The notes below the pieces were generated by a model. It made no database searches. It worked only from the letters and a program-made list of their open reading frames with translations, and had not been told where the DNA came from. Position numbers and translations under genes: made by a program. From the IMG/VR virus record IMGVR_UViG_3300042861_000785, positions 1 through 20,932 of that record: 20,932 nucleotides of DNA, one strand, 5' to 3'. Source of the stretch: a virus. Below, piece after piece: positions 15,920-19,338 of this stretch (positions within the stretch are counted from its first letter, which is position 1; every line of letters starts with the position of its first letter).

Positions 15920-16264
15920 ATGAGTACAATGATTAGTGGGTATATCACCCTAGACAAATTAAAAGAAATCGTAAAAGTATGCGAAAGCAAAAACGAAACA
16001 GGCTTTAAATTTACAGCCAGCATTTCAGACCAATCAAACCAATACGGGCAAAATGTGAGCTTCTTTGCAGAACAAACTAAAGAACAACGAGATGCAAAGG
16101 TTAATAAGTATTATTTTGGGAATGGCAAAGTTTTTTGGACGGATGGAAAAATCAATGTAGGAACTAAAGACCAGCCAATACCAACAAGCGAAGTGAAATA
16201 CCAAGGCGGTAAGGTTGAAGATGTGAGAGTATTACAGGCTGGATCGGATGACTTGCCGTTTTAA
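15920..16264 (+). CDS. Small SSB-like single-stranded DNA-binding protein (114 aa)
   Basis: The product ends in SDDLPF, almost identical to the DDD-[IL]-PF tip by which bacterial SSB recruits partner proteins. The body (about 1-90) is beta-rich with aromatic residues (NVSFFAEQTKEQ, VNKYYFGNGKVFWTDG), consistent with a small OB-fold-like protein coating ssDNA. The usual SSB start motifs (N-x-V-x-L-x-G) are absent, so it is not a typical host-like SSB. Position between recombination genes and the primase-helicase fits a replication ssDNA-binding role. It could instead be a non-SSB protein that borrows the tip. Confidence 0.65.
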   Translation: MSTMISGYITLDKLKEIVKVCESKNETGFKFTASISDQSNQYGQNVSFFAEQTKEQRDAKVNKYYFGNGKVFWTDGKINVGTKDQPIPTSEVKYQGGKVEDVRVLQAGSDDLPF

Positions 16265-16271
16265 GAACTTT

Positions 16272-16284
16272 ATTGAAAATCAAT
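16272..16284 (+). other. Short inverted repeat (ATTGA-AAA-TCAAT)
   Basis: A 5-bp perfect hairpin, ATTGA (16272-16276) and TCAAT (16280-16284) with loop AAA, follows the SSB-like stop by 7 bases. No T-run follows, so it is not a clear terminator. Confidence 0.4.
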
Positions 16285-16291
16285 GATTTAT

Positions 16292-16479
16292 ATATATTTA
16301 TATTCCACATGTATAAAAAAGTATGCGAAGTCTCTCTTATAGGAGTAGTTCAAACAAGAAAATTTTTTTTTTTCAAAATGGCAAATCAATCCTGCAATCC
16401 TGCATAAAAAGAAAAAAAGTCAATGTTTATAAGGGTTTCCTTCATATATAAATAAAACACATGTAGAATATAAATATAT
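16292..16479. repeat. 21-base inverted repeat, arms 16292-16312 and 16459-16479, origin candidate
   Basis: The two arms match at 20 of 21 positions when one is reverse-complemented (core ATATTTATATTC[C/T]ACATGT) and are separated by 146 bases. Between them lie a T11 tract (16363-16373) and a tandem octamer AATCCTGC at 16388-16395 and 16396-16403. The block carries no convincing gene and sits just upstream of the replication-helicase genes, suiting an origin or a pair of operator sites. That function is inferred. Confidence 0.6.
16388..16403 (+). repeat. Tandem direct repeat AATCCTGC x2
   Basis: Two adjacent perfect copies of an octamer lie inside the intergenic block before the zinc-ribbon gene. 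Two copies are too few to call iterons but may mark a binding site. Confidence 0.6.
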
Positions 16480-16495
16480 GTTTATTAAATTTAGT

Positions 16496-16528
16496 TTTGT
16501 TTAAGTCAAAAAATAATATATATTTTTG
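16496..16528 (+). promoter_or_regulatory. Promoter candidate (TTTG-N21-TATTTTTG) for the structured RNA
   Basis: TTTG at 16496-16499 and TATTTTTG at 16521-16528 are spaced 21 bases apart, within the Bacteroidota range. The expected start is near 16533-16536, just before the pseudoknot element. TATATnTTTGCA at its -7 box also occurs in the two early promoters, but the TAGTAC element does not. Confidence 0.65.
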
Positions 16529-16534
16529 CATTGA

Positions 16535-16666
16535 GTTCTTTAATTAAAAATAGGTGTGGAAGCCGATATTTATAAATTTTTAAATGCCATTGTAGGTATT
16601 GCTTAAAATTGATTAGTAGAAATACTTTTCATAACTTCCACAAGCAGTGCTTACAATGGTTTTTTT
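16535..16666 (+). ncRNA. Candidate structured RNA with pseudoknot and terminator-like 3' end
   Basis: Helix A (16555-16562 with 16635-16642) has 8 uninterrupted pairs. Helix B (16587-16602 with 16644-16659) has 16 uninterrupted pairs, three of them G-U. The strands run A, B, A', B', which is the H-type pseudoknot order, and A' and B' are nearly adjacent so the helices could stack. A third hairpin, AGTA-GAAA-TACT (16615-16626), lies in the loop with a GNRA-type tetraloop. Helix B is followed by T7 (16660-16666), as in an intrinsic terminator. G-U pairs replacing Watson-Crick pairs suggest selection for RNA structure. A promoter lies just upstream. No known RNA class is recognised; it may be a free phage RNA or a leader controlling the downstream genes. 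Confidence 0.6.
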
Positions 16667-16670
16667 ATTT

Positions 16671-16943
16671 ATGACCAAATTATGTCAAAGTTGTAATTCT
16701 GAAAATATTGAAACTATTTTTAGTGATGGATGTATGAACTATTTTTGTAAAGATTGCAATGCCTACAATGGTTCAGCTCACAATTATATTAGTACAGGAT
16801 TAAAGTTTAGGTTCGGAAAATATAAAGGGAATTTAATAGAACTTTGTACAGATGCTAATTACCTTAAATGGATGCTAGAAGGTAGCAAAGTAGATAAAGG
16901 ATATAAAATAGCAATGATTAACAGATTAAACCAATTAAAATAA
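16671..16943 (+). CDS. Zinc-ribbon protein with ExoX-C-like domain (90 aa)
   Basis: The N-terminus holds two CxxC knuckles (C5-x2-C8 and C26-x2-C29), a small zinc ribbon. Residues ~45-70 (FRFGKYKG, then NYLKWML) match the short domain found at the C-terminus of ExoX-like exonucleases and in DUF3820-type proteins, where it probably aids binding of nucleic acid or protein. A nuclease active site is absent. I chose the ATG at 16671 because upstream in-frame starts (ATG 16656, GTG 16647) fall in the RNA helix and would translate the T-run. It lies one base before the primase-helicase gene, suggesting an accessory replication role. Confidence 0.72.
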   Translation: MTKLCQSCNSENIETIFSDGCMNYFCKDCNAYNGSAHNYISTGLKFRFGKYKGNLIELCTDANYLKWMLEGSKVDKGYKIAMINRLNQLK

Positions 16944-16944
16944 G

Positions 16945-19338
16945 ATGCCACAAATAACAATATACAAATCATTCGGAGACGTTTCCGCTGGATATAACAG
17001 AGATATATTTTTTATTCTCGATAGGATAAAAAAAGGAAGTTCAAAGCAATTAGTTGAACAAATACGAAATTCGAGCGTAGAAGCCCAAAATTTGCTTAAA
17101 AAGAAATTACCAGCCATTCTATTCAGTGGGACATTTAGACAGCGAAATGACGCCTCTATTATCGAACACAGCGGTTTAATTTGTCTTGACTTTGATAAGT
17201 TTGAGAATAATGAGCTATTAAACGAATTTAGAGCCCAATTAATAGAAGATGCATATACGTTTAGTGTATTTACTTCACCTAGTGGAAACGGGCTTAAATG
17301 CCTGGTTAAAATACCAAATGAAATAGAGAATCATAAGTTATATTTTGAAAGCCTAAAAGATAAGTATAATTCAAAATACTTTGACATTAGTTGTTCAAAT
17401 ATTAGCAGAATTTGTTTTGAGAGTTACGATCCTGAAATTCACATAAACGAAGATAGTTTGACATGGATGGAAAAGAATGAGCCTGACATATACGAAGTTG
17501 AAACGATAAACGTAAATATACCGATACGTTCAGAAAATAGAATAGTAGATAATTTGCGAAAATGGTTTACGAAATTCTCAATGAGTAAAGGAGAAAGGAA
17601 TAATAACCTATTCAAGTTAGCCATTGCATTCAATGATTTCGGAGTGCCAAAAAACGTATGCGAGAATGTATGCATGGAATATGTAAGAGACGACTTCCCT
17701 TTACGTGAAATTCAGACTATAATCAAAAGCGCTTACCAACGAACTGGAAGTTTTGGAACTAAGTTTTTTGAAGATACTTTCACAAAGGATAAAATTGAAA
17801 AGCAAATTAGAAGTGGCAAGGACATCAAAGGAATTAAAAAACAATTTCCTGACTTACAGGAAAATGAGATTGAGAATGCCATCGAGAATGTAAAGGAAAA
17901 TATTAGTATAACTGACTTTTGGGAATATTCTAGCAAAGGCAATATTCAAATTTTACAGCATAAGTTTAAGTACTTCTTACAGGAACGTAATTTCTTTAAA
18001 TTTTACCCTAGTGGAACGAATGGATTTATCTTTATTAAGATATTTGAAAACTTATTAGAGGAGACAAATAAGGATATGATAAAGGATTATACCCTTAACT
18101 ATTTAGAGTTCAAAGAAGACATAGGAATGAAGCCGTTTAATTATATGGCTGAAAAGACTAAGTATTTCTCATTCGATTTCTTATCATTTTTAGAGACTAA
18201 AGAAGTCAAACTACTTGAAGATGACATTGATAATTGTTATCTATACTTCAAAAACAAAATAATATCTATTTCAAAAAATGAAGTTAAGCAAATTGACTAC
18301 ATTGATAGTGAAGGTTACGTATGGAAAAATCAAATAATAGATAGGGAATTTACCTACATAAAAGTGGATAATTGCGTATTTTCTAAATTTTTATTTTACA
18401 TAGCAAACGAGGAGACGCAACGATATAACTCACTACGTTCAGTTATTGGGTACTTACTTCATTCATTCAAAACAAGTGCGAATAATAAGGCTATAATTCT
18501 TAACGATGAAACTATTTCAGATACTCCAAATGGGGGTAGTGGTAAGGGCTTATTTTGGAATGCATTAAGTCAAATGAAAAAACTTAATTCTTTAGATGGT
18601 AAGTCCTTTAGTTTTGGAGACCAGTTTAAGTATCAAACTATTTCAGCTGATTGTCAAATATTGGTATTTGATGACGTTAAAAAGAACTTTGACTTTGAGA
18701 GTTTATTTAGTTTGATTACGGAAGGTATTACTTTAGAGCGCAAAGGTCAACTAGCAATCAAGCTCCCAGTTAAAAAAAGCCCGAAAATATTAATTACAAC
18801 GAATTACACAGTTGGTGGCGTTGGTGGATCATTCGAGCGCAGAAAATTTGAAGTTGAATTCAGTAGTTTTTTTAATGCTAATAATACTCCATTACAAGTA
18901 TTCAATCATTTACTATTTGATGAGTGGTCGGACATTGAATGGACTAAATTTGATAACTTTATGATTGATTGCGTTCAGTATTATTTAGCAAATGGATTAG
19001 TTCAGCACGAGTTTAAAAATCTTGAAGTACGTAAATTTATTAATAAGACATCAAGTGAATTTTACGAATTTTCTATTGAAGGGGAACATTTCAAAACGAA
19101 TACAAGAATTTATAATCAAGTTATATTTGAGGAGTTTTTAACAGATTATCAAGATTTCAGAAAGTGGTTAACTAGAAAGAAGTTCAAACAATGGATTGAT
19201 ACGTATGTAACATTTAAAGGACTTAACATTATTCACAGCAAAGATAACATGGGCGTATATTTTGAAATTATCGACAAAGTAAGCAAGCCTAAATACGAGA
19301 TTAATAATTTACCTATTGAAGACGGATTAACATTTTAA
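16945..19338 (+). CDS. Primase-helicase: VirE/BT4734-like N-terminus plus SF3-like helicase (797 aa)
   Basis: This is the main replication enzyme of the window. Residues ~70-120 hold SGLICLDFDKF and FTSPSGNGLKCLVKI, typical of the BT4734/VirE-N-type domain that precedes primase-helicase proteins in Bacteroidota elements. The region from ~190 to 290 resembles the PriCT-like linker (SKGERNNNLFKLAIAFND). The C-terminal ATPase has Walker A near 528 (PNGGSGKGLFWNAL), Walker B near 572 (CQILVFDDVKK), a sensor-type KILITTNY near 615 and a basic ERRKFEVEF after it, as in SF3/D5-like helicases. The likely role is phage DNA unwinding and perhaps primer synthesis; a canonical primase catalytic motif was not confirmed. 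It is followed by a 1-base gap and the nuclease gene. Confidence 0.85.
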   Translation: MPQITIYKSFGDVSAGYNRDIFFILDRIKKGSSKQLVEQIRNSSVEAQNLLKKKLPAILFSGTFRQRNDASIIEHSGLICLDFDKFENNELLNEFRAQLIEDAYTFSVFTSPSGNGLKCLVKIPNEIENHKLYFESLKDKYNSKYFDISCSNISRICFESYDPEIHINEDSLTWMEKNEPDIYEVETINVNIPIRSENRIVDNLRKWFTKFSMSKGERNNNLFKLAIAFNDFGVPKNVCENVCMEYVRDDFPLREIQTIIKSAYQRTGSFGTKFFEDTFTKDKIEKQIRSGKDIKGIKKQFPDLQENEIENAIENVKENISITDFWEYSSKGNIQILQHKFKYFLQERNFFKFYPSGTNGFIFIKIFENLLEETNKDMIKDYTLNYLEFKEDIGMKPFNYMAEKTKYFSFDFLSFLETKEVKLLEDDIDNCYLYFKNKIISISKNEVKQIDYIDSEGYVWKNQIIDREFTYIKVDNCVFSKFLFYIANEETQRYNSLRSVIGYLLHSFKTSANNKAIILNDETISDTPNGGSGKGLFWNALSQMKKLNSLDGKSFSFGDQFKYQTISADCQILVFDDVKKNFDFESLFSLITEGITLERKGQLAIKLPVKKSPKILITTNYTVGGVGGSFERRKFEVEFSSFFNANNTPLQVFNHLLFDEWSDIEWTKFDNFMIDCVQYYLANGLVQHEFKNLEVRKFINKTSSEFYEFSIEGEHFKTNTRIYNQVIFEEFLTDYQDFRKWLTRKKFKQWIDTYVTFKGLNIIHSKDNMGVYFEIIDKVSKPKYEINNLPIEDGLTF

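Follow-up and report, generated by a model that had tools for sequence, protein, structure and literature searches.

A pseudoknotted leader, and candidate transcription attenuator, before replication and accessory genes of Bacteroidetes phages

We analyzed a 20,932-nucleotide (nt) stretch of viral DNA (IMG/VR record IMGVR_UViG_3300042861_000785, positions 1 to 20,932; hereafter, the window) and, within it, a structured RNA element that ends at position 16666, between a gene for a protein resembling single-stranded DNA-binding protein (SSB) and the genes for a zinc-ribbon protein and a primase-helicase (Table 1). A first-pass annotation had described two interleaved helices, a GAAA-capped hairpin, a TTTG-N21-TAnnTTTG promoter and a T7 tract, all of which are present in the sequence. 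The two helices, H1 and H2, interleave to form a pseudoknot. H1 has the 8 base pairs (bp) originally counted, while H2 has 18 pairs with four G-U (16586/16660, 16595/16651, 16597/16649 and 16599/16647) instead of 16 bp with three. From the position of the −7 box, transcription would start at about 16533, a small correction to the earlier annotation. The nested fold alone has a z-score of −4.4 compared to shuffled sequences, and an energy scan for a pseudoknot followed by a T-run scored the element at −40.3 and the second-best site in the window at about −20. A BLASTN search of phage records with the element returned no relevant match, and Rfam 15 at the gathering score matched no family in the window and 13 related loci, in agreement with the earlier remark that no RNA class of this layout was known. 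Matches to a 16-mer taken from H2 were mostly due to chance, together with true relatives.

We collected relatives through the primase, the same primase being encoded on nine viral contigs. The element is kept in L001 to L005, and L006 and L007 have the same layout with a different element sequence. Its supposed tie to the zinc-ribbon gene is not supported, because L002 and L003 lack that gene and retain the element, with the primase directly after the U-run. In the L037 group, the same element still lies 3′ of the SSB-like gene and precedes a different primase-like protein. Standard pairs occupy 97.9% of the pair cells (32 pairs in 6 distinct sequences), and every slid control drops to 35–56% paired. 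Both sides are altered in four pairs (three in H1 and one in H2), so the compensatory changes that had been proposed as a check do occur among relatives. Since these four double-sided changes separate two clades, they represent few events; the main evidential weight is in the wider set of elements, rather than in covariation among close relatives.

We found the same layout 69 times in 1.63 Mb of phage loci (46 distinct elements with 34 H1 sequences), compared to 0 times in the reversed sequence, using a scan that required a −7 box within 16 nt, a pseudoknot, a U-run and a start codon within 36 nt. Seven phage contigs yielded 25 matches, compared to 0 when reversed. The first scanner, from which the promoter and start-codon filters were absent, gave many background matches. 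The parts are ordered as the 5′ arm of H1, a linker, the 5′ arm of H2, often an internal loop, a further helix (H3) whose apical loop is the 3′ arm of H1, the 3′ arms of H3 and H2, the U-run and the start codon; the scan of primase loci recovered this order in unrelated sequences. A TAnnTTTG-like box, the known −7 motif of Bacteroidetes (PMC7366714), lies just 5′ of nearly all elements, and in the 46 catalogued elements the motif or a near form of it is 3–15 nt 5′ of H1 (within 16 nt was required). The distance from stem to start codon has a median of 14.5 nt and is 8–32 nt in 45 of the 46 (within 36 nt was required). T makes up 54% of the 15 nt upstream of these start codons (the T-run being partly a criterion), compared to 32% at the other genes of these loci, where the stretch is A-rich. 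The earlier proposal of a structured leader fits, since dozens of phage loci have an element of the same layout immediately 5′ of a gene.

A non-circular set consisted of 42 leaders chosen by promoter, hairpin with T-run and start codon, regardless of H1. Within their first 26 nt, 52% of these leaders contain a perfect complement of at least 7 nt to their own hairpin loop, compared to 3.9% when each 5′ end was matched to the loop of another leader. When the T-run criterion was dropped, most structures with promoter, H1 and hairpin still had a T-rich stretch and then a start codon at their end, and the few structures from the reversed control were unlike the real ones in these two features. The presence of leaders was also predicted for newly fetched genes: a 41%-identical relative of the replication gene of the cultured phage FCL-2 carries a separate leader whose H1 differs, and among four fresh relatives of the DEAD-helicase genes, L260 has a clear leader and L258 a weak one. 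Comparison between loci shows the structure, its covariation, its placement between promoter and start codon, and its recurrence.

The anatomy of the members is more specific than the pairing of H1 and H2. In most members with H1 at least 7 nt past the −7 box, the 5′ arm of H1 itself forms the loop in a short hairpin at the 5′ end, initially noticed in an FCL-2-like subfamily; members with a spacing of 3–5 nt mostly have a bare 5′ end. A 5′ hairpin stem of at least 4 bp surrounds H1 in 72% of 54 elements, compared to 30% with shuffled flanks. With its 5′ arm in a hairpin loop, H1 is typically a loop-loop kissing helix with the terminator hairpin. The first-pass annotation missed this usual placement of the H1 5′ arm, as well as the sharing of the layout among many genes and many phages. 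H1 is 7 bp long in 24 of the 46 catalogued elements; its 3′ arm nearly always adjoins the 3′ arm of H3, and the gap on the other side is 0–3 nt in most cases. Three non-canonical internal loops recur at one site, the H2/H3 junction (UGAW/KGAU, GAGUA/GAAA and UU/UU).

The genes behind the elements encode primases, helicases (ResIII/DEAD and PIF1), HNH and GIY-YIG homing endonucleases, N6/N4 and Dam methyltransferases, and RNA ligase. In FCL-2, the gene after the element resembles a replication initiation protein; in the cultured phage elemoE, the element stands before a small gene that precedes replication initiation and primase/helicase genes. The scan found no match in the cultured phages phi46:1, P12024S, Leef_1, lotta8-2 and BT-TP2. 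Scanning genome contigs identified eight contigs, most of which are apparently misbinned phage; one of the eight, L158, has the element. In Flavobacteriales and related sequence (about 0.89 Mb), only this virus-like contig turned up again, and the sampled Flavobacteriales chromosome contained no element. No description of such leaders was found in the open-access literature. The element apparently belongs to a widespread, so far undescribed class in viruses of Bacteroidetes bacteria.

We propose that the element probably forms the 5′ leader of a phage mRNA, where it would serve as a cis-acting attenuator of transcription. The leader-terminator reading follows from the stable stem and U-run just before a start codon, about 90–130 nt after the promoter; the elements have a stable hairpin followed directly by a U-run, as in intrinsic (Rho-independent) terminators. 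Host RNA polymerase would initiate at the TAnnTTTG promoter, and about 7–8 nt displayed by the first hairpin, or by an unpaired 5′ end, would base-pair with the second hairpin's apical loop. This second hairpin would be an intrinsic terminator whose U-run ends just 5′ of the start codon. Terminated transcripts would yield an RNA of about 90–130 nt, while read-through transcripts would express the gene. The discrete RNA of about 130 nt that was originally suggested may also be made, as the leader's terminated product. The loop-loop helix would tie the first-made bases to the terminator, and could set the termination frequency and protect the 5′ end. These phages would use one device, built each time from unrelated sequence, before several replication and accessory genes.

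The closest known architecture is that of the guanidine-IV (mepA) riboswitch, in which a pseudoknot links two hairpins and the 3′ one, terminator-like, is followed by U's and a start codon (PMC9788692). In most class members, two hairpins are likewise joined by a pseudoknot and the 3′ hairpin is terminator-like; the likeness is weaker where the 5′ hairpin has only 2 bp, as in the window copy, or is mostly missing, as at short promoter spacing. The guanidine-IV RNA and its Gd4v variant have highly conserved nucleotides around the pseudoknot, whereas the leaders have 34 H1 sequences among 46 elements, and their carriers are phages with several unlike genes per genome behind them. Rfam 15 returned no family at the gathering score, the presence of the guanidine-IV model in that copy being unchecked. 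Because both the conserved ligand-holding sequence and an Rfam match are absent, we do not consider the leaders to be members of that class, although they may work alike.

Several points weigh against attenuation. Termination, its regulation and its trigger are steps that we infer, and we saw no competing antiterminator fold that the members have in common. The scanner's limits were set after examples had been seen, sampling went through primase-bearing contigs, and many loci are partly related. The window copy is atypical: its promoter-to-H1 distance is 26 nt, its 5′ hairpin stem has 2 bp compared to 4 bp in L004 and L037, and none of the recurrent internal loops occurs in it. Among the four DEAD-helicase relatives examined afresh, L259 and L261 have no leader. 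The leader of the L115 primase (L115:4860–4990) keeps the hairpin loop TCAGAGAG and has lost the matching 5′ arm CTCTCTGA; it is possibly a decayed copy.

A broader proposal, which we make tentatively and regard as doubtful, is that these leaders form a sequence-free kissing-loop attenuator regulon in Bacteroidetes phages. Several genes of one phage would have leaders alike in shape only, and a single factor from phage or host, either an antiterminator or an RNA-binding protein recognizing this shape on the polymerase, would switch the genes together during infection.

Other mechanisms could account for a pseudoknot at this position. It is unlikely that the element is a translational operator, where a phage RNA- or DNA-binding protein (e.g. 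SSB) would bind the 5′ pseudoknot, spread along the U-rich stretch as far as the start codon and block translation of the replication genes. The precedent is the gene 32 operator of T4 and RB69, a pseudoknot of about 28 nt before the SSB gene followed by over 40 nt of less structured RNA with UUAAA repeats; T4 gp32 blocks translation of its own mRNA (PMC535899). The leaders share with it a 5′-terminal pseudoknot on a phage replication mRNA and an unstructured, AU-rich and U-rich run up to the AUG, but they also have a terminator-like hairpin with a U-run, which the gene 32 operator does not include, and their U-runs follow stems as in terminators. In many copies a stable stem lies 8–12 nt from the AUG, where we would expect it to hinder 30S binding; however, the gap to the AUG is just 8–32 nt in nearly all elements (45 of 46). 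An SSB-like gene with a DDLPF tail does lie upstream of the element, yet it has no such leader itself, and the genes behind the elements are diverse (primases, helicases, endonucleases and others), none encoding SSB.

Decidedly unlikely is a mechanism whereby the short terminated RNA is the real product, either a stable small RNA that acts in trans or a decoy, its two ends structurally locked, and the downstream gene is incidental. An own promoter, a compact fold and a terminator-like end would suit such an RNA, as would an element that stays put when the next gene is inserted, lost or replaced. The constrained distance to the start codon (8–32 nt in 45 of 46, within the required 36 nt), however, leaves no room for a separate promoter. 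Moreover, the H1, linker and loop sequences vary even inside one phage, so that no shared target sequence is visible.

We consider it very improbable that the element only protects or insulates the mRNA, with a locked 5′ end that slows decay or a hairpin that halts upstream transcription, and no regulated attenuation. The first transcript bases are paired and the hairpin would also block readthrough from the upstream gene, but protection does not need a terminator-like stem and U-run directly before the start codon, and insulation does not need H1. Chance pairing around ordinary terminators of preceding genes is hardly credible. AT-rich DNA does give some random matches, and shuffled sequence yields a minority of matches in scans that ask for neither promoter nor start codon; but the absence of reversed-control matches in scans that ask for both, the covariation and the loop complementarity already contradict chance for the whole class.

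Other pseudoknotted RNAs resemble the leaders in part. In the STAXI motif (PMC2864571), a pseudoknot recurs two or three times in the vicinity of genes for SSB and other DNA-handling proteins; the leaders share this neighborhood, but are single-copy per gene, have a promoter and terminator-like hairpin, and have no Rfam match. A hepatitis delta virus-like ribozyme, a nested double pseudoknot in which the P3 hairpin precedes the 3′ arm of P1, was considered by layout only and rejected: the 3′ arm of H1 fills the H3 loop in most members, and a hairpin precedes this arm in the window group only. RNA pseudoknots are also known in phage biology from ToxI of type III toxin-antitoxin systems, which the leaders resemble in this respect. 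A type III antitoxin RNA was rejected, as the elements are single copies with no tandem repeats and no endoribonuclease toxin gene is among the downstream families found.

Table 1. Features of the leader, its neighboring genes and a second leader type (window positions unless a locus is named)
Feature	Position	Strand	Basis or remark
SSB-like gene upstream of element	15920–16264		acidic DDLPF tail; no Pfam match
−33 box TTTG, Bacteroidetes-type promoter	16496–16499	+	sequence; motif as in PMC7366714
−7 box TATTTTTG (TAnnTTTG), 21-nt spacer to −33 box	16521–16528	+	sequence
Predicted transcript, about 130 nt if stopped at U-run	16533–16666	+	predicted from promoter position and T-run
5′ arm GG of short 5′ hairpin, loop = H1 5′ arm	16553–16554	+	pairs with CC 16563–16564
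H1 5′ arm TGTGGAAG, 8-bp helix	16555–16562	+	sequence; covariation in relatives
Linker L1, leading CC able to close short 5′ hairpin	16563–16585	+	energy scan
H2 5′ arm (terminator stem)	16586–16603	+	fold; comparison with relatives
GAAA-capped hairpin within H2 loop	16611–16630	+	AGTA-GAAA-TACT at 16615–16626; longer in L037
H1 3′ arm CTTCCACA, adjoins H2 3′ arm	16635–16642	+	sequence; comparison with relatives
H2 3′ arm	16643–16660	+	fold; comparison with relatives
U-run T7, first T able to pair with G16586	16660–16666	+	sequence
Zinc-ribbon gene, separating leader from primase in some phages	16674–16943	+	weak sub-cut-off ExoX-like_C match
Primase-helicase (BT4734-like N-terminal domain, PriCT_1), replication gene behind leader	16945–19338	+	domain matches
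Second leader type	L095:4881–5010, L098:4882–5010, L104:2891–3020, L122:4877–5006, L084, L091

The first-pass annotation had also suggested that folding could control the zinc-ribbon gene through an ATG inside the helix. This ATG (16656–16658) does lie within the 3′ arm of H2. Its counterpart is out of frame in L004 and L005, which have eight T's; the gene therefore most likely starts at the ATG at 16674, and the ATG inside the helix does not hold up as a control point. The end of the H2 3′ arm, TGCTTACAATGGT (16649–16661), is nearly repeated in the zinc-ribbon coding sequence as TGCCTACAATGGT (16760–16772), which makes the H2 5′ arm complementary to the zinc-ribbon mRNA over about 10 nt; this complementarity may be due to chance.

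Small genes lie between leader and primase at several loci (L106:4519–4995, L125:3041–3560, L124:4642–5001, L135:4618–5001 and window 16674–16943). They are homing-endonuclease, zinc-ribbon or other genes, as though the position immediately 3′ of the leader were a hot spot for insertion. At L037:4330–6639, an unrelated-looking primase/helicase-like protein occupies the primase's place behind the SSB-like gene and leader. A noncoding stretch of the window, 16280–16345 (TTTATATATATTTATATTCCACATGTATAAAAAAGTATGCGAAGTCTCTCTTATAGG), is near-identical in all eight aligned relatives despite differing flanks, and could be a replication origin.

A second type of leader stands before about 25 primase genes, with a conserved core GTTGTCGGAGGCATCCAC, a hairpin and a U-run. 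Its hairpin loop is complementary to sequence past the U-run, just before the ATG (CACTGTT/AACAGTG, CACGCT/AGCGTG, CACTTTT/AAAAGTG and TTCTTGCTA/TAGCAAGAA), and the downstream arm is partly repeated. The changes in loop and arm look compensatory.

Such RNAs can evade both sequence-based and covariance-model searches, with just pseudoknot pairing, layout and position conserved. If our reading is correct, kissing-loop attenuation without conserved sequence would be unusual, because the closest two-hairpin terminator switches known rely on conserved nucleotides. As FCL-2 and elemoE are cultured carriers, start sites, termination and regulation are directly testable. If the reading holds, an RNA architecture that Rfam does not match would govern the replication, helicase, methyltransferase and homing-endonuclease genes in a common group of Bacteroidetes phages.
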